In this document: in pieces, positions 43,357 through 60,613 of the stretch
Numbering within the stretch: the stretch's first letter is position 1
Layout of the letters: each line of letters opens with the position of its first letter
Assembly: GCF_003002875.1 (NCBI RefSeq)
Contig: NZ_PVTH01000005.1
Span: forward strand, 124,001 to 188,000
DNA length: 64,000 bases
Direction: 5' to 3'
DNA from: Arcticibacter pallidicorallinus
Lineage (GTDB): Bacteria; Bacteroidota; Bacteroidia; Sphingobacteriales; Sphingobacteriaceae
Position numbers and translations under genes: made by a program
The notes under the pieces: model-generated
Told to the model about the DNA's origin: nothing
The model's input: only the letters and a program-made list of their open reading frames with translations
Database searches by the model: none

Positions 43357-43519
43357 AAAACTTTGTTAAAACATTAATGTGAATTAATGTCCCTTACGTT
43401 TTTGGTATGCTTTCAAAATTGGGGGGTAGTCGCGTTGGCTAAGTGCATCAGCAGGTCATATGGAGACCGGCCGGCGTTAACGCGGGACTACTGCTTCAAT
43501 CGCGAAAGCATGTGTCTTG

Positions 43520-43712
43520 AACAGATGGCAAGTATCCTGGCTTGTAACTTTTCAATCCGTCCTTCTCACCGGGGCTACCCCGGCAATGGACATTGTATTT
43601 GGCTTGAAAATCCTGCGGAAAGCAGGGCGTTACTTACAGTTGCGCGACAGCCCGTGATTTGCACACGGTTCCTCTTTAATTCATACCCTTTCTGATATGA
43701 AACCTGTCTGTT
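43520..43712 (-). promoter_or_regulatory. cobalamin riboswitch upstream of the metE-like gene
   Basis: On the minus strand the region contains the cobalamin-aptamer core: GAGGAACCGTGTGCAAATC, then CTGTCGCGCAACTGTAA, and at the 3' end AGCCAGGATACTTGCC. AACAGA (plus-strand 43707-43712) can pair with TCTGTT (plus-strand 43520-43525) to close P1. B12 riboswitches in front of metE shut off the B12-independent enzyme when cobalamin is present. About 160 bases separate it from the start codon, room for an expression platform. Confidence 0.92.
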
Positions 43713-43827
43713 GTAAGAATGATAGTAAAGAACTGCAGCAAAGATAAGCTACAGATTTGAGAATAGCTAAATCATAGTTTCTAGAGAGGCAAATCAGCTG
43801 CGTTACAGCGTCGGATCTCGGTCGTAA

Positions 43828-52707: not shown

Positions 52708-53898
52708 TCAGATACGCTGTGCTATCACGAACCCTGAGGCCCAGGCCCATTGGAAATTATAACCGCCCAACCATCCGGTAACGTCTACGCATTCTCCGCC
52801 GAAATAGAGTCCGGGTACTTTTTTGGCTTCCAGGGTTTTGGAGGATAGCTCGCTTGTATCTACCCCGCCGCGCATGACTTCTGCCCTATCGTATCCTTTG
52901 TCGCCGGCTGGTTTGACCCTGAAATAATGAATCTGCTGCTCAACAGCTTGCAGATCGGCCTTACTCAGGGAGGCCAGATTCTTATCAACCGGCAGGTATT
53001 TGGCTAGTGCATCTGCAATCTTCCGGGTGTAAAGCTGTGCTAAGAGGGTGAGCAGACTGCGCTTTCCGTTCTGCTGACGCTCCTGCTCGATGAGCTCGAG
53101 GATATTCCTTCCGGGAAGAAGATCAAGTTCCACCCATTCCCCGGGGCGCCAATAGGATGAAATTTGCAGGATAGCGGGACCGCTGAGTCCCCAGTGGGTA
53201 AAGAGGATATTCTCTTCGAAGCTGATCCGCTCATTGCTTACTCTGCAGAAAATGCTGTTGCCGGACAAGCTGGCAAACCACTCCGCGTCTTTCCCCGTAA
53301 CGGTTAAAGGAACCAATGCTGGTGCTGTAGGGACAATCTTCAATCCGAACTCCTTTGCAATGCGCAAGCCAAAGTCGGTCGCGCCCATCTTCTGAACGGG
53401 CAAACCGCCTGAAGCGATGACAACGGCTGGTGCTTCCAGGGTCTTGCTCTTGCCTTGATGCTCATACATAACGGCAAAACTGCCATCTTCCTTGCGTTGT
53501 ACAGACTTCACATCTGCCTGCAAGCGGATCGTTTGTCCGAGATCATCGCAGAGCGATGTAAAGACGTCGACAATATCCTTGGCTTTGTTATTCTCGGGAA
53601 AGAGCTGTCCGAGTGTCTTCTCCTGACCGTAGATGCCGTATGCTTCGAAGAAACTGATGCTGTCTTCAACGGTCCATTGTGAAAAGGTCGACTTGGAGAA
53701 GTGTTCGTTTTGAGAGATGAAATTGGCGGGACTGCTGAAGAGATTGGTGTAGTTGCATCGTCCGCCTCCGGAGATCAGGATCTTCGCTCCTGCCTTGTCG
53801 TTCTTCTCCAGCAGGATGACCTGTTTGCCTAAAAAACCTGCCTGAACCGCACACATCAAGCCGCAGGCGCCGGCGCCAATAATAATCGCATCAACCAT
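52708..53898 (-). CDS. HI0933-family NAD(P)/FAD-dependent oxidoreductase
   Basis: A 396-residue flavoprotein of the YhiN/HI0933 group. FAD-binding AIIIGAGACGLMCAVQAG at the N-terminus, the family block KILISGGGRCNYTN, GLPVQKMGATDFGLRIA in the middle and LYFGGECVDVTGWLGGYNFQ with WAWASG at the C-terminus. Function of the family is not settled. Convergent with mnmD. Confidence 0.92.
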   Translation of the reverse strand: MVDAIIIGAGACGLMCAVQAGFLGKQVILLEKNDKAGAKILISGGGRCNYTNLFSSPANFISQNEHFSKSTFSQWTVEDSISFFEAYGIYGQEKTLGQLFPENNKAKDIVDVFTSLCDDLGQTIRLQADVKSVQRKEDGSFAVMYEHQGKSKTLEAPAVVIASGGLPVQKMGATDFGLRIAKEFGLKIVPTAPALVPLTVTGKDAEWFASLSGNSIFCRVSNERISFEENILFTHWGLSGPAILQISSYWRPGEWVELDLLPGRNILELIEQERQQNGKRSLLTLLAQLYTRKIADALAKYLPVDKNLASLSKADLQAVEQQIHYFRVKPAGDKGYDRAEVMRGGVDTSELSSKTLEAKKVPGLYFGGECVDVTGWLGGYNFQWAWASGFVIAQRI

Positions 53899-53915
53899 CG
53901 GCCAAATATAAAAGT

Positions 53916-53945
53916 TTTGATTTTAGGGTTGGATATGTATATTTG
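53916..53945 (+). promoter_or_regulatory. his operon promoter
   Basis: TTTG at 53916-53919 and TATATTTG at 53938-53945, 18 bases apart, match both Bacteroidota promoter boxes. The expected start near 53951 lies about 27 bases before the histidine leader ORF. Confidence 0.7.
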
Positions 53946-53977
53946 TCATATCCCGGTTTTAATCAGGAGCCCAATAT

Positions 53978-54034
53978 ATGTCGATATCGTTCACATACCA
54001 TCATCATTTCCATCATCGCCTAGCGGCGATATGA
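53978..54034 (+). CDS. histidine-rich his operon leader peptide
   Basis: An 18-codon frame, MSISFTYHHHFHHRLAAI, lies between the his promoter and hisG. Five of eight consecutive codons (54001-region, 53999-54016) are His, all CAT. AGGAG at 53965-53969 sits eight bases before the ATG, a rare good Shine-Dalgarno for this genome. Composition, size and position are those of a leader whose translation measures charged tRNA-His, as in the enterobacterial his operon. The hairpin ATCGCC-TAGC-GGCGAT starts inside the last His codon, so a stalled ribosome would block it. Confidence 0.8.
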   Translation: MSISFTYHHHFHHRLAAI

Positions 54035-54074
54035 TATGTATATGGTTTCTACGTGAAACTGATTGTTCCTGAAC
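54015..54074 (+). promoter_or_regulatory. candidate his attenuator hairpins
   Basis: After the His codons are three short inverted repeats: ATCGCC/GGCGAT (54015-54030), GTTTC/GAAAC (54045-54059) and GTTC/GAAC (54065-54074). None is followed by a classical T-run, so termination may be Rho-assisted or the control may act on hisG translation. Confidence 0.4.
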
Positions 54075-54106
54075 ACCTTTTATTGGACTGATTAACTTAT
54101 TTAAAA

Positions 54107-54958
54107 TTGAAAACACTCAAAATTGCTATCCAGAAATCTGGTAGACTAAACGAAAAATCGGTAGAGCTTCTTAAAAACTGCGGCCTTAGTTTTGAAAACT
54201 ACAAAAGCTCATTAATATCTACAGTTTCCAACTTCCCTTTAGAAATTCTTTTTTTAAGAGATGATGATATCCCTGAATACGTGCAGGATGGCATCGCTGA
54301 CCTGGGTATTGTAGGCGAAAACGTGATCAACGAAACGGAAGTTGATGTAGCTTACCTGCAGATGCTGGGCTTTGGCAAATGTTCGCTGAAGCTGGCTGTA
54401 CCGAACAACGGGCAGATCCAGTCCTTATCAGACCTGAGCGGTAAAGCAATTGCCACCTCCTATCCGAATATCTTAAAGAAATTCCTGGCGAAAAATAATG
54501 TTGCTGCGGATATACGCACCATCTCAGGTTCTGTGGAGATTGCTCCCGGCCTTGGGCTGAGTGATGCGATATGTGACCTTGTTTCGACAGGCGGCACGTT
54601 GAAGAGTAACGGACTGATCCCTTTCGGGGATGTCATGCATTCGCAGGCCGTCTTGATCGGCCGTAAGGGCGATGAGCAGAACCCGCTGATCGTGGAACTT
54701 CTGCAACGCGTACAATCGGTACTGCGGGCAAAAGAGACCAAGTACGTGGTGCTGAACATCGAGCGCAAGAACCTGGATGCGATCAAGTCACTGCTAAGCG
54801 GTATCAAGAGTCCTACTGTTGTTCCTTTGGCTGAAGAAGGCTGGGTAGCTGTTCATACGGTTGTTGCAGAAAAAGATTTCTGGGATAAGATCAGCCAGAT
54901 GAAGGCTGTTGGAGCGCAGGGAATTGTTGTTATGCCTATTGAAAAGATCATTTTATAG
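54107..54958 (+). CDS. hisG: ATP phosphoribosyltransferase
   Basis: First step of histidine synthesis, joining ATP and PRPP. The 283-residue length is the long form with a C-terminal ACT-like regulatory domain (VVPLAEEGWVAVHTVVAEKDF region), expected to bind histidine. IAIQKSGRLNEKS opens the chain and SVEIAPGLGLSDAICDLVSTGGTL is the PRPP-binding segment. The start is TTG at 54107, since LKIAIQKSGRL must be included and no ATG is nearby. Overlaps hisD by one base. Confidence 0.95.
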   Translation: MKTLKIAIQKSGRLNEKSVELLKNCGLSFENYKSSLISTVSNFPLEILFLRDDDIPEYVQDGIADLGIVGENVINETEVDVAYLQMLGFGKCSLKLAVPNNGQIQSLSDLSGKAIATSYPNILKKFLAKNNVAADIRTISGSVEIAPGLGLSDAICDLVSTGGTLKSNGLIPFGDVMHSQAVLIGRKGDEQNPLIVELLQRVQSVLRAKETKYVVLNIERKNLDAIKSLLSGIKSPTVVPLAEEGWVAVHTVVAEKDFWDKISQMKAVGAQGIVVMPIEKIIL

Positions 54959-56256
54959 TGTTACAAACCTATTCATATCAGGACCTGTCGGCCTCTGAGA
55001 TCAATAAACTGATCTCCAGAAATGCTGATGAAGACCAGACTATCGGCCAGCGCGTGGAAGGCATTATCGCTGAAGTGCGCAGCCGGGGTGATGAGGCTCT
55101 TAAGGCCTTCGCCGAAAAGTTTGACGGGGTAAAACTGGATAAGCTCTTTATTGAGAAAGCGGAGATTGCGCAAATTGCTGCCGGTATAGGCGCTGAACAA
55201 AAGGCGGCTATTGACCTGGCTTACGCTAATATTTCTGCATTCCACGCTGCGCAGAAGCATCAGGAAGCGCCGGTTGATACGATGCCGGGGGTAACCTGCT
55301 GGAGGGAAGCGAGAGCTATCGAGCGTGTTGGTCTGTATATTCCGGGAGGTTCGGCCGTGCTGCCCAGCACTTTTCTGATGCTCGGAATTCCTGCCCGTAT
55401 TGCGGGATGTAAGGAAATCGTGGTTTGTTCGCCTCCTCAAAAGGACGGCCTGATCAATTGTTACGTAGCTTATGTGGCGGTATTGCTTGACGTCGAACGC
55501 GTTTATCTTGCGGGGGGGGCTCAGGCGGTGGCTGCTATGGCTTATGGAACGGATTCTGTCCCACGCACGGATAAGATTTTCGGTCCGGGTAACCAATACG
55601 TAACCAAAGCGAAGACGCTCATTCAGTCGACGACGCAGACGGCTATTGATATGCCTGCCGGTCCTTCGGAGGTATTGGTTCTGGCAGATGAGGGTGCTAA
55701 TCCGGAATTTGTAGCGGCAGATCTTCTGGCGCAGGCGGAACATGGCGCGGATTCGCAGGCTATCCTGGTATCCAACTCGTCTGCGCTTATCAGCGAAACG
55801 GTTGCTGCTCTGGAAAGACAGCTTGCGGTGTTGCCGAGAGCGGAAATTGCTGCTAAGGCGATAGCGAATTCATACGCGGTATTGACGGCAGACCTGGTGC
55901 AGGCTATGGATTTCAGCAACCTGTATGCTCCCGAGCATTTGATCCTGGCGACAGCTAACTGGAAGGAATTGATTCCTTCGATCAGTAATGCGGGCTCAGT
56001 ATTTCTCGGACATCTTACTCCTGAAAGTGCGGGCGACTATGCATCGGGCACGAATCATACGCTGCCGACAAGTGCCTATGCGCGCTCCTACTCGGGTGTG
56101 TCGCTTGACTCCTTTATCAAGAAAATTACATTTCAACATATCTCACCCGAAGGGGTCCATCAGATTGGTAAGGCCGTTGAGGTTTTGGCCGAACTGGAGG
56201 GACTGCAGGCCCATAAAAATGCCATGTCGGTCCGAATTTCTTCTGTGAACAGCTAA
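54958..56256 (+). CDS. hisD: histidinol dehydrogenase
   Basis: Last two oxidations to histidine, zinc- and NAD-dependent, 432 residues. Key blocks: ERVGLYIPGGSAVLPS, KIFGPGNQYVTKAK, DMPAGPSEVLVLAD, DLLAQAEHGADSQA (catalytic Glu/His) and ASGTNHTLPTSAYAR with the metal His. Start is GTG in the TAGTG overlap with hisG, so translation is coupled. Confidence 0.96.
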   Translation: MLQTYSYQDLSASEINKLISRNADEDQTIGQRVEGIIAEVRSRGDEALKAFAEKFDGVKLDKLFIEKAEIAQIAAGIGAEQKAAIDLAYANISAFHAAQKHQEAPVDTMPGVTCWREARAIERVGLYIPGGSAVLPSTFLMLGIPARIAGCKEIVVCSPPQKDGLINCYVAYVAVLLDVERVYLAGGAQAVAAMAYGTDSVPRTDKIFGPGNQYVTKAKTLIQSTTQTAIDMPAGPSEVLVLADEGANPEFVAADLLAQAEHGADSQAILVSNSSALISETVAALERQLAVLPRAEIAAKAIANSYAVLTADLVQAMDFSNLYAPEHLILATANWKELIPSISNAGSVFLGHLTPESAGDYASGTNHTLPTSAYARSYSGVSLDSFIKKITFQHISPEGVHQIGKAVEVLAELEGLQAHKNAMSVRISSVNS

Positions 56257-56267
56257 TTAAACAAGCG

Positions 56268-57326
56268 ATGGAATTTGATTTAACAAAACTATTGAGAACC
56301 AACATATTGAATCTGGTTCCGTATTCTTCTGCACGGGATGAATACAAGGGGGAAGCTTCTGTTTTCCTTGACGCGAACGAGAACAGCTTTGGCTCTCCTT
56401 TAAATAAAAACTATAACCGCTATCCTGACCCTTTGCAGATGGCTGTGAAGACGAAGCTCAGCACGATCAAGGGTGTGCCGCCTCAAAATATCTTTCTGGG
56501 AAATGGCAGTGATGAAGCGATTGACATTTTGTTCAGGGCTTTTTGTCGCCCGGGTATCGACAACGTCATCGTCCTACCTCCTACCTATGGCATGTACGAG
56601 GTCTCGGCTAACATCAACGATGTCACGCTAAAAAAGATATTGCTGACTCCGGACTATCAGCTGGATATGGAAGCTATTGCGGAGGCTATTGATGAGAATA
56701 CGAAGATGATCTTTGTTTGCTCGCCTAACAACCCTACCGGTAACTCCATTATGCGTGAAGATATTGAAACGCTGATTGCGAATTTCGGGGGACTGGTTGT
56801 TGTGGATGAGGCGTATATCAATTACTCCAGGCAGAAAACCTTTATACAGGAGCTAACGGAATATAGCAACCTCGTGGTGCTGCAGACCTTGTCGAAGGCA
56901 TGGGGACTTGCCGGAATCCGTCTGGGTATGGCTTTCGCAAGTGAAGAGATCATCGAGGTCTTCAACAAGGTAAAGCCGCCATATAATATTAACGAGGCTA
57001 CTCAGGAACTGGCTCTGGAAGCGCTGAACAACGTAGACCAGGTAAATGAGTGGATCCGCGAGACGATCCGCCAGCGGGAGATGGTGATTGCAGAGATGAT
57101 TGAGCTCCCCTTCGTTATCGAGATCGTGCCTTCGGACGCGAACTTCATCATGGTGAAGACTACTGATGCCCGGGGACTCTATGTGTACCTGGTTGAAAAT
57201 GGTATCATCACACGTGACCGCTCCAAGGTTCAGCTTTGTGAGGGTGCTATCCGCATCACCATCGGTACACCTGAAGAAAACGTTTTATTGATTAATACAT
57301 TGAAAGCCTACTCTACTGCTAAATAA
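56268..57326 (+). CDS. hisC: histidinol-phosphate aminotransferase
   Basis: PLP-dependent class II aminotransferase, 352 residues. [11 protein letters not shown] near residue 33, [34 protein letters not shown] and the PLP Lys in [13 protein letters not shown] are all present. Follows hisD by 11 bases. Confidence 0.96.
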
Positions 57327-57327
57327 A

Positions 57328-58488
57328 ATGGAAGACTTGAAAAGTGCTAACAAGCGCAAAGTATTGTTTATTGACCGGGATGGGACCCTGGTTCTGGAGC
57401 CTGAGGATTATCAGGTGGATTCTTTTTCGAAGCTGCGCTTCTATCCGGGTGCCTTCAAATACATGACGAAGATTGCCGAGGAACTGGACTTTGACCTGAT
57501 CATGGTGACGAACCAGGACGGTTTGGGAACGGACAGCCATCCGGAAGCCAATTTCTGGCCGGTACATAACTTTATTATGAACTCTTTTGAGGCGGAAGGT
57601 GTGATATTTAAGGAAGTCATCATTGACAAAACCTTTGCACATGAGAACAAAGATACACGAAAACCGGGCATCGCACTTCTGAAGCATTTTTTTGACGTAG
57701 AAAAATACGACCTTGAAAACTCTTTCGTTATAGGTGACAGAGTGACGGATATTGAGCTGGCTAAGAACCTGAACGCTAAAGCAATATGGATTAACCAATC
57801 GGATAGTCTGGGTGCTGACGAGGTGAGCAGCAAGCTGGAGATACTGAACGATTACATTGCACTGGCAACTACTTCATGGAAAGACATCTATGAATTTTTG
57901 AAAGTAGGTAAAAGAGAGGTTGAGCACAGAAGGACAACCAAGGAAACCGATATATACATTAAACTAAATCTGGATGGTAAGGGCGATGCTAAGATCAGCA
58001 CCGGACTGCATTTCTTTGATCATATGCTGGACCAGATCGCGAGACATGGCAGCATAGATCTGGAAATTACGGCAAAGGGCGATCTGCACATCGACGAACA
58101 CCATACGATAGAAGATACGGGAATCACTCTGGGTGAGGCTATTGCGAAAGCATTAGGCGACAAAAGAGGTATTGAACGGTATGGTTTTTGCCTGCCAATG
58201 GATGATTGCCTGGCTCAGGCGGCTATCGACTTCGGCGGGAGGAACTGGATTGTTTGGGATGCAGATTTTAAGCGTGAAAAGATAGGCGAAATGCCTACGG
58301 AGATGTTCTACCATTTCTTTAAGTCGTTCAGTGACGCATCTCGCTGTAACCTGAACATTAAGGCTGAAGGGACTAACGAACATCATAAGATTGAAGCTAT
58401 TTTTAAAGTGTTTGCGAAAGCAATCAAGATGGCAGCGAAGCGGGATGTAAACAATATGCAATTACCCAGTACGAAGGGCCTTCTTTAA
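57328..58488 (+). CDS. hisB: bifunctional histidinol-phosphatase / imidazoleglycerol-phosphate dehydratase
   Basis: A 386-residue fusion. The N-terminal HAD phosphatase has the nucleophile motif FIDRDGTLV and KPGIALLKH with the HAD Lys; the C-terminal dehydratase (from about residue 195) has the metal-binding motifs [23 protein letters not shown] and a late [11 protein letters not shown]. The fused arrangement is common in Bacteroidota and Enterobacteria. One base separates it from hisC. Confidence 0.96.
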
Positions 58489-58503
58489 TTAAGACAGAAA
58501 TAA

Positions 58504-59094
58504 ATGATCGGAATAATTAACTACGGCGCCGGCAACATTTTTTCGCTCACTGCTGCATTGGACAGGCAGAAGATTGCTTATGAGATGGTGAATTCGGCCG
58601 ATAGCTTCGACAGATACGATCGCTTCATCATTCCGGGTGTGGGTCATGCCGGAGCGGCGATGCAGAAACTGGAGGAAAGCGGACTGGTGGAAAGCATCAA
58701 ATCGATCACGAAACCCGTGTTGGGAATCTGCGTCGGGATGCAGTTGCTTACGGAGTTTTCGGAGGAAGGAAATTCCTCATTATTAGGAATCACGCCAGTA
58801 AAAACCCGTCATTTTACCGAAGACCTGAAGATAAAGGTCCCACATACGGGCTGGAACAAGGTTAGCGTTCAAAATGAAAGTAAATTATTTGAGGGAATTC
58901 CAAATGAGACGTACTTTTACTTCGTTCATTCCTATTTTATAGAATTTAATTCTACTTTTACAGTCGCTTTTGCTGACTATGGGTTAAAATTCTCGGCAGC
59001 AATTAGTAAAAACAATTTTTATGGCGTTCAGTTTCATCCTGAAAAATCAGGTGAAGCGGGAGAGCAGTTACTCAAAAACTTTTCAGAATTATAG
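58504..59094 (+). CDS. hisH: imidazole glycerol phosphate synthase, glutamine amidotransferase subunit
   Basis: Class I glutaminase that feeds ammonia to HisF. 196 residues: NYGAGNIFSL at the start, nucleophilic Cys in GICVGMQLL, and the His/Glu pair in GVQFHPEKSG. Confidence 0.96.
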   Translation: MIGIINYGAGNIFSLTAALDRQKIAYEMVNSADSFDRYDRFIIPGVGHAGAAMQKLEESGLVESIKSITKPVLGICVGMQLLTEFSEEGNSSLLGITPVKTRHFTEDLKIKVPHTGWNKVSVQNESKLFEGIPNETYFYFVHSYFIEFNSTFTVAFADYGLKFSAAISKNNFYGVQFHPEKSGEAGEQLLKNFSEL

Positions 59095-59101
59095 AAAAAA
59101 T

Positions 59102-59857
59102 ATGTACATAATCCCTGCAATTGATATTCTGGACAAAAAGGTTGTCCGTTTACGTGAAGGAAACTACGAGCAAGCTACATTTTACGATGTAACTTTAGAG
59201 GAAATGATTGAGCGCTATCAGTCTAACGGGACTGAATTTGTTCACATTATCGACTTGAATGGCGCGAAAGGTGATTTCAGTAACCAGGAATATCTATTCG
59301 ATATTATCCGTAAGACTGAGATGAAAGTTCAGTATGGCGGTGGTGTTAGAAGTATTGAGAAAGTGAAAGAGCTTATCGATGCAGGCATACATCGTGTTAT
59401 TGTTGGAACTCAGGCGATCACAAATCCTGACTTTCTTCCTGAACTGAGCCGTGCTTTTACACACAGGGAAACAGGGACAGGAACTGACCAGATTGTTGTG
59501 GCTATCGACGTCCTTGACGAGGTAATCAAGTATTCGGGTTGGATGGAAAGCTCACCAATCAAATTAATGGATTACGTAGACACCTGTCTTAACTTAGGTT
59601 TCTTCCGTTTTCTTTGTACCGACATCAATAAGGATGGTAAATTAGGTGGTGCCGGTGTAGAACTGTACCAGAAACTTCTGGACCACTCTCCTTTCATCAA
59701 GCTTATTGCTTCAGGCGGTATCAGCTCAATGGATGACATCAGAGCGGTGCAGCAATATAAGGTAGAAGCTTGCGTGGTTGGTAAGGCTATTTATGAAGGT
59801 CATATCTCCATCGACGAGATAAAAGACTGGAACTTAAAATCATTAATTTCTTTCTAA
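59102..59857 (+). CDS. hisA: ProFAR isomerase
   Basis: TIM-barrel isomerase, 251 residues, MYIIPAIDILDKKVVRLREG with the catalytic Asp. VQYGGGVRSIEKV and LIASGGISSMDDI are the phosphate-binding loops. The frame is open upstream into hisH, but the barrel clearly begins at ATG 59102, seven bases after the hisH stop. Confidence 0.95.
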   Translation: MYIIPAIDILDKKVVRLREGNYEQATFYDVTLEEMIERYQSNGTEFVHIIDLNGAKGDFSNQEYLFDIIRKTEMKVQYGGGVRSIEKVKELIDAGIHRVIVGTQAITNPDFLPELSRAFTHRETGTGTDQIVVAIDVLDEVIKYSGWMESSPIKLMDYVDTCLNLGFFRFLCTDINKDGKLGGAGVELYQKLLDHSPFIKLIASGGISSMDDIRAVQQYKVEACVVGKAIYEGHISIDEIKDWNLKSLISF

Positions 59858-60613
59858 TTGGTCTCCAAACGCATTATTCCCTGCCTGGATGTTAAAGATG
59901 GCAGGACCGTTAAAGGTATCAATTTCGTTGACCTGAGGGATGCCGGTGACCCGGTGGAACTGGCCTGGCAATACTCGAGGCAGGGTGCGGATGAGCTGGT
60001 ATTCCTGGATATTACGGCGACGAATGAGCGACGTAAGACCATGGTTGAGCTGGTGAAGTCGGTTGCCCGACAGGTGAACATCCCTTTCACCATCGGCGGC
60101 GGGATCAACGAAATTGCGGATGCGGATGTTCTGCTGAATTCCGGGGCGGATAAGATTTCCATTAACTCGGCTGCGGTAAGAAATCCGGAACTCATCAATG
60201 AGCTGGCTAATGCCTTTGGTAAGCAGTTTGTTGTTGTGGCGGTGGACACTAAAAGGGTGAACGGAAAGAATCTGGTTCATCTGAACGGCGGCCGGATAGC
60301 GACGGAGATTGAAACCGAAGTCTGGATTAAGGAAGTGGAATCACGCGGTGCGGGTGAAATATTGCTGACTTCCATGGATCATGACGGAACGAAGGCTGGA
60401 TTTGATAACGGCTTGCTGGGGAAAATCAACAGCACTTTGTCTATCCCCATCATTGCTTCGGGCGGTGCGGGTACCATTCAGCATTTTGCGGATACTTTCC
60501 TGGAGGCGAATGTCGACGCTGCTTTAGCGGCTTCGGTTTTTCATTATGGAGAGATACTGATTCCTGACCTGAAAAGGGAGTTAAGGAAGCAGAACATCGA
60601 GGTCCGTTTATAA
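59858..60613 (+). CDS. hisF: imidazole glycerol phosphate synthase, cyclase subunit
   Basis: TIM-barrel synthase partner of HisH, 251 residues. [19 protein letters not shown] with catalytic Asp at the N-terminus, second Asp in [13 protein letters not shown], phosphate loops IGGGINEI and [11 protein letters not shown]. Starts at TTG directly after the hisA stop, with no gap. Confidence 0.95.

Follow-up and report, generated by a model that had tools for sequence, protein, structure and literature searches.

A conserved histidine leader of the attenuation kind, with no intrinsic terminator found, before hisG of Arcticibacter pallidicorallinus and its relatives

Known histidine leaders and the hisG upstream region of the window

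In Enterobacteria, His-rich leader peptides sense the charging of tRNA-His and attenuate the operon that follows them. Leader stalling also underlies translational attenuation of the erm/cat type. Some attenuators in Bacteroidetes/Chlorobi were reportedly predicted by Vitreschak et al. 2004 (FEMS Microbiol Lett 234:357). The His attenuators of Firmicutes (Bacillus cereus group, Peptostreptococcaceae, Erysipelotrichales) carry terminator and antiterminator hairpins, and an amino-acid attenuator variant that hides the RBS is mentioned in the same source (PMC9413887, in extract). A survey suggests a gamma-proteobacterial origin of amino-acid attenuators, with few transfers (PMC3766115, in extract). 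Concerning the same gene as here, extracts of PMC9723704 describe a structured 5' element of hisG, conserved in Flavobacteriaceae and unmatched in Rfam, together with 'strong clues' of attenuation by leader peptides upstream of amino-acid operons. The word 'leader' is absent from the searched text of PMC8305728, on the his genes of Bacteroidota, and the titles and abstract beginnings of the open-licence PubMed Central literature yielded no Sphingobacteriaceae his leader or terminator-less Bacteroidota His attenuator. As far as these sources go, flavobacterial hisG leaders have already been described (PMC9723704) and the terminator-less form appears to be new.

The stretch of DNA analysed here (the window, 64,000 nucleotides from Arcticibacter pallidicorallinus) contains a hisGDCBHAF operon at 54107-60613, with NCBIfam matches for all seven genes, the score of hisA being slightly below the model's cut-off. 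A first, sequence-only reading had drawn attention to an 18-codon ORF with five CAT codons in front of hisG, to short hairpins between the two and to a TTG start of hisG. The ORF, with five His codons that are all CAT, is borne out by the sequence and by chance controls, the pairs of two hairpins (P2 and P3) were verified, and hisG is seen to begin with TTG at 54107. The features, with the evidence for each, are the following.

53938..53945, plus strand: promoter -7 box TATATTTG of the Bacteroidota TAnnTTTG type (sequence, PMC9723704 consensus, family conservation)
53959..53976, plus strand: 5' strand of P1, abutting the leader ATG (covariation, pairs checked)
53978..54034, plus strand: leader ORF MSISFTYHHHFHHRLAAI, ATG at 53978, stop TGA at 54032-54034 (sequence, conservation, chance controls)
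53989..53994, plus strand: leader codons 4-6, in segment B, which can pair with 54053-54059, the P3 3' strand, with one bulge (covariation, pairs checked)
54015..54030, plus strand: P2 hairpin ATCGCC-TAGC-GGCGAT, over the last His/Arg codons and the ORF end (covariation, RNAalifold, pairs checked)
54045..54059, plus strand: P3 hairpin GTTTC-TACGT-GAAAC, whose 3' strand is also a partner of leader codons 4-6 (covariation, pairs checked)
54081..54095, plus strand: 3' strand of P1, -26 to -12 of the hisG start (covariation, pairs checked)
54107..54958, plus strand: hisG (ATP phosphoribosyltransferase), TTG start, first in the operon (sequence, NCBIfam)

The pairs of P1 in the window, all canonical, join 53959-53966 with 54088-54095 and 53971-53976 with 54081-54086. 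With the enterobacterial his attenuator (Rfam RF00514, His_leader) the locus shares a His-rich leader peptide before hisG, a hairpin over the His codons and alternative pairings, but its family is without an intrinsic terminator and P1 links the 5' end of the leader to the region upstream of hisG. The Firmicutes attenuators are likewise independent His leader peptides outside Proteobacteria and differ by their terminator/antiterminator hairpins (PMC9413887, in extract). Neither the window nor 12 relatives matched RF00514, at the gathering and at permissive thresholds, and no Rfam T-box match that could indicate a His T-box riboswitch was found in the window. Elsewhere in the window a cobalamin riboswitch lies on the minus strand at 43510-43723 (Rfam, 80.2 bits).

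The -7 box fits TAnnTTTG, a consensus taken from PMC9723704 (in extract), at -12 to -5, so that transcription is predicted to start at about 53950. In the family, 85 of 87 loci have the motif no more than 70 nt ahead of the leader's ATG. The sequence-only reading had proposed a near-consensus promoter; the promoter is better described by the Bacteroidota -7 box. A sigma-70 scan returned two sites where 1.8 are expected. The AGGAG on which that reading also relied as a Shine-Dalgarno sequence is present upstream of the leader ATG at 53965-53969, but the weight given to it is not supported: among 89 family loci the window is the one case of AGGAG no further than 20 nt from the leader ATG, and AGGA or GGAG is found in six. 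Ribosomes of Bacteroidia are reported not to recognise Shine-Dalgarno (SD) sequences (PMC9976891, in extract).

Conservation of the leader and absence of the terminator

The His-rich ORF that was to be sought upstream of hisG in relatives is conserved. The family set was made of the best 80 of 492 confirmed relatives, which by their matches are of Sphingobacteriaceae type and whose titles mostly name Mucilaginibacter; the closest hisG locus among the matches listed is that of Arcticibacter eurypsychrophilus, with 91% identity. In 78 of these best 80, hisG is preceded by a short ORF that has three His or more; the exceptions are L028, whose ORF has two His, and L054, which has 20 nt before hisG and is unreadable. 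To form the set of 89 family loci, the window was joined with 79 of the 80 (L054 excluded) and nine loci from a class-wide draw; among them, L081 is the window itself and L082, L083 and L086 duplicate L014, L011 and L038. In 69 non-redundant loci the leader has 15-20 codons with 2-8 His (CAT 286, CAC 133), and 52-85 nt separate its stop from hisG. Three Parapedobacter and Olivibacter loci have a larger distance from leader stop to hisG, namely 287 nt in L045, 108 nt in L067 and 140 nt in L080; by mechanical reading, these gaps of 108-287 nt contain further small ORFs (L045:1154-1500, L067:1333-1500, L080:1292-1500).

A class sample of 296 Bacteroidia genomes, 136 of them with hisG, provided 130 upstream regions that were read, six (G013, G054, G099, G166, G185, G290) being omitted for contig edges, fragments or by the analyst's choice. 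An ORF with at least three His stands before hisG in 120 of the 130 (reverse strand 23, shuffles about 27), and in 107 of the 117 regions outside the window's family; given a chance level of 23-27 at this threshold, part of these 107 leaders are chance ORFs. Could the leader of the window, too, be a chance ORF over a structural RNA, with no translation-based regulation? Codon-position counts in the family leaders (2012/2155/2447) show a weak enrichment at the third position, which would agree with this and led us to set codon-position bias aside as proof of coding. The excess of His codons argues the other way: at least four His are found in 106 of the 130 regions as opposed to four on the reverse strand and about ten in shuffles, and at least five in 81 as opposed to none and one. 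Within the window itself, the leader is the single one among 823 ATG ORFs of 8-30 codons on both strands to have five His, and dinucleotide shuffles of 53899-54106 produced an ORF with at least five His in 11 of 20000 cases. We thus hold a chance ORF to be highly improbable. Judged from the comparison of sequences, this is a conserved histidine leader of the attenuation kind and a real one, and the ORF before hisG most likely senses histidine shortage.

At the threshold of three His, 34 of the 39 Bacteroidia families sampled have a His-rich ORF before hisG in at least one genome. The residues around the His run vary by family (LHHHHFH, HIHHHH, HHFHHSS), so that the feature kept is the His codons within a short ORF. 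This breadth, together with the missing Rfam leader match in the window and 12 loci, suggests that attenuation is an old, class-wide device. The ten leaderless regions fall in six families and include all four regions read of one of them, f41. No His-rich leader lies within 400 nt of hisG in L197, L198, L199, L208 (f41), L141 and L106 (f62), and in the four f41 loci hisG starts with GTG in each case.

The families differ in what follows the leader. A G+C-rich hairpin with a T-run terminator stands before hisG in 91 of the 107 leader-bearing loci outside the family (shuffles about 1; L112 and L120, clear by eye, were missed by the terminator finder and both are counted as having none). By the same finder no intrinsic terminator lies between leader and hisG in any of the 89 family loci, and no terminator-like site was found in 53850-54250 of the window, for which shuffles average 0.2; the remark of the sequence-only reading that no T-run terminator follows the hairpins is therefore true of the window and of the whole family set. 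Classic attenuation accordingly seems to be the common form in the class. The terminator-type His leader is presumably ancestral, and the window's family appears, from these sequences, to have lost the terminator that other Bacteroidia families have.

Given none in 89 family loci versus 91 of 107 elsewhere, leader-peptide control by a non-classical mechanism is the best-supported reading. The proposal that the operon is under leader-peptide control, by a mechanism that may not be the classical one, thereby gains support from the conserved ORF, from the covariation described below and from the absence of the terminator. One could still suppose classic His attenuation with a degraded terminator, in which a non-canonical, factor-assisted terminator, or a pause, acts in the T-rich stretch before hisG. 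T-runs at about -45 to -30 in several family loci would suit this supposition, as would the classic terminators between leader and hisG in the other families; we find it improbable nonetheless, as none of the 89 loci has a terminator by the finder's criteria and the T-rich strand sits within P1 in many folds.

The terminator-type His leaders of other Bacteroidia precede the same gene and have a His-rich ORF as well, but differ from the family by their terminator and, mostly, by an ATG start of hisG. With one rule applied to all loci, the start codon of hisG is GTG or TTG in 85 of the 89 family loci, the four ATG exceptions being L007 and the distant-leader loci L045, L067 and L080, whereas the 91 loci with leader and terminator outside the family have 89 ATG, one TTG and one unassigned start. 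The 16 leader-bearing loci outside the family for which no terminator was found start with ATG in 14 cases, so a missing terminator alone does not go with GTG/TTG. Fisher's p for the start codons of the family against the terminator loci is 6e-45, a value that ignores shared ancestry and is not a measure of the strength of evidence; the contrast is confined to one family and hence represents largely one evolutionary event.

Covarying pairings around the leader

Because the P1 arms of different genera are out of register in the alignment, we used a swap test, in which the duplex energy within each locus is compared with that of partners permuted among loci and the reversed strand serves as control. 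The loci with a leader far from hisG (L045, L067, L080) were omitted, and the 86 eligible loci were reduced to 69 by identity. P1, an idea that arose from reading 27 of the tested loci by eye, joins the stretch from -32 to +3 of the leader ATG with the 45 nt that precede hisG. The loci's own duplexes have -8.7 kcal/mol, against -6.4 kcal/mol for swapped partners, and none of 20000 permutations was as good as the loci's own pairing (69 loci).

A subsequent scan of all segment pairs gave, as negative outliers, z -9.0 for P1 on -45 to -1 and -8.4 on -25 to -1. P3 reached z -8.1, P2 -5.5 and the pair of -60 to -31 with -45 to -20 -4.4, the segments of these three pairs being partly overlapping, and P3 was repeated with separate strands. 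Leader codons 1-8 gave z -7.9 with -60 to -31, -5.8 with -45 to -20 and -5.6 with -45 to -1, and the leader codons gave -5.2 with the 30 nt after the stop. Since the background is overdispersed, other pairs going up to z +5.4 in the opposite direction, and the loci are not independent, a z near -5 is weak when taken alone.

On 13 diverged representatives, P1 retains z -4.8 (reversed control 0.7), P2 -3.6 and P3 -3.1, and the leader codons give -3.5 with -60 to -31 and -4.4 with the stretch after the stop (control -2.3). By group, the signal of P1 is z -4.5 in 16 Arcticibacter/Daejeonella-like loci, the window included, and -3.3 in nine Pedobacter, unclassified and other loci; in 44 mostly Mucilaginibacter loci it is not significant (z -1.4, p 0.09). 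The 3' arm of P1 covers, at the median, -30 to -15 of hisG.

In 62 loci, two partners covary with the 3' strand of P3 (GTGAAAC), namely the P3 5' strand at z -6.3 (control 0.1) and early leader codons at z -5.5 (control -1.4); the seven others of the 69 were omitted, being without the searched P3 motif. This strand hence has two alternative partners, and the two helices are mutually exclusive. On 12 representatives the two pairings are weak (z -2.0 and -1.9, p about 0.03). We also weighed, by eye, whether the conserved TACGT loop makes a loop-loop contact with the leader, and discarded the idea. The sequence-only reading had proposed looking for covarying hairpins in relatives, and covariation is found for P1, P2, P3 and the pairing of leader codons with the P3 strand.

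RNAalifold on 14 aligned family leaders recovered P2 and P3 alone, with 11 pairs of which two have double changes. Of the 69 loci, 65 have P1 in their free minimum free energy (MFE) structure, and many of the 19 folds viewed show it within a single long rod. Six chosen relatives have folding z-scores from -4.3 to -6.9; that of the window is -2.2, and in its MFE the P1 5' strand takes a rival partner, 54065-54072. In the distant-leader loci the 3' arm of a P1-like fold ends 224 (L045), 37 (L067) and 56 nt (L080) upstream of hisG.

A possible switch of hisG initiation and its alternatives

Comparison of the loci established that the His ORF is conserved, that the family has no terminator, that helices covary, that the 3' strand of P3 is shared and that hisG mostly starts with a codon other than ATG. 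From these results we predict a histidine response, with its direction, kinetics and translational output, as follows. With ample His-tRNA the first ribosome would clear the leader and the RNA would close. In this closed state P1 would tie the leader's own start region to about -30 to -15 of hisG, early leader codons would pair with the strand beyond P3 and P2 would close the His codons; hisG, with its weak GTG/TTG start, would be poorly initiated and the leader start would be locked too. With His-tRNA scarce, a ribosome would stall on the His codons and cover segments B and C while hisG is being made. It would thereby occupy the leader-codon partner of the P3 3' strand and leave the P3 5' strand free, P3 would form instead, and the hisG start region would be more open.

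Among the explanations considered we favour a ribosome-mediated histidine attenuator, with its output moved from transcription termination to the translation of hisG, at about even odds. The leader probably acts as an attenuator, and its likeliest output is translational. Such a device would share with erm/cat-type translational attenuation the proposed stalled ribosome on a short ORF that opens the start region of the next gene. It would differ in its signal, predicted to be His-tRNA, and in a helix that lies over about -30 to -15 and not over an SD sequence, in a phylum that hardly uses SDs. In Flavobacterium, low structure is found at -20 to +20, structure around the start tunes initiation, and bS1 contacts at -12 to -15 are suggested (PMC6847099, in extract). 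We contend that a large family without a terminator and with a long-range closed fold is a natural test of translation initiation switching where Shine-Dalgarno pairing is hardly used.

In simulation, the unpaired share of positions -12 to +12 of hisG is about two-thirds, whether or not the leader carries a ribosome. The median openness of -35 to -13 rises from 0.41 in the free RNA to 0.53 with a ribosome at the first His codon, is unchanged at 0.41 with one at the last His codon, and reaches 0.67 solely with a ribosome on the leader start itself. The sequence of the window shows no opening, the value being 0.67 when free, 0.67 again for a ribosome at the first His codon and 0.57 for one on the leader start. 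P1 is kept in the MFE of 53 of the 69 loci when a ribosome is placed at the first His codon. This small simulated opening, and the fold away from hisG in L045, L067 and L080, imply that in some members P1 may not act directly on hisG, and that Rho or kinetic effects may play a part.

The same observations bear on two other explanations. The closed fold might chiefly control the leader itself and, through a closed 5' end, the stability of the mRNA, with the His codons tuning decay and not hisG initiation; the fold does also hide the start region of the leader (unpaired 0.33 at the median), and a similar fold persists where hisG is distant. That explanation would leave the start codons of hisG and the narrow spacing to hisG unaccounted for, and it is in our view quite improbable. 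The other is Rho-dependent attenuation, by which the stretch from P3 to hisG becomes free once the leader ribosome is done and Rho terminates before or in hisG, unless a stalled ribosome or an alternative fold blocks its loading. We deem it unlikely, for it would leave unexplained the GTG/TTG starts and why pairing is conserved as far as about -15 of hisG, even though it accords with the absence of an intrinsic terminator, with a C-rich stretch after P3 in many Mucilaginibacter loci, e.g., CCCCCGTT, and with the fold far from hisG in L045, L067 and L080.

Returning to the switch of hisG translation, it can be speculated that it represents an attenuator for ribosomes that ignore SD sequences: the whole leader ORF would lie in one closed fold, in which the regions where ribosomes enter the leader and hisG are paired with each other, and the speed of the first ribosome over the His codons would decide once whether both starts lock. 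It would have arisen in Sphingobacteriaceae by replacing the ancestral terminator, perhaps from a post-terminator pairing that is still seen in some relatives. We offer this fuller version tentatively, as a possibility that falls short of even chances.

The pairing in question was observed in loci with a GAGT-type terminator (L176, L185, L196, L200, L203 and others), where a GTTTACTCAGAC-like strand just upstream of hisG complements the 5' arm and loop of the terminator, which are GTCTGAGTAAAC-like. Within the last 50 nt before hisG, the loci's own pairing in 23 loci of 12 families has -13.2 kcal/mol against -11.1 for permuted partners (z -5.2, reversed control -2.0), and 56 loci with other terminator types gave nothing (z -0.4). 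It is perhaps a second, translational check on read-through transcripts.

A further family (f15, by our guess Chitinophagaceae) has 20 of 28 readable loci without a terminator, seven with a clear one and one with a weak one, among the best matches of 57 genomes with hisG. In f15 leaders that end in ...HHxHHSS, the stop codon lies in the loop of a CCTCC-TAA/TGA-GGAGG hairpin, the arms of which are perfect anti-SD and SD sequences; this stop hairpin is seen in L218, L221, L226, L229, L230, L233 and L238, and variants of it in L213, L236 and L237.
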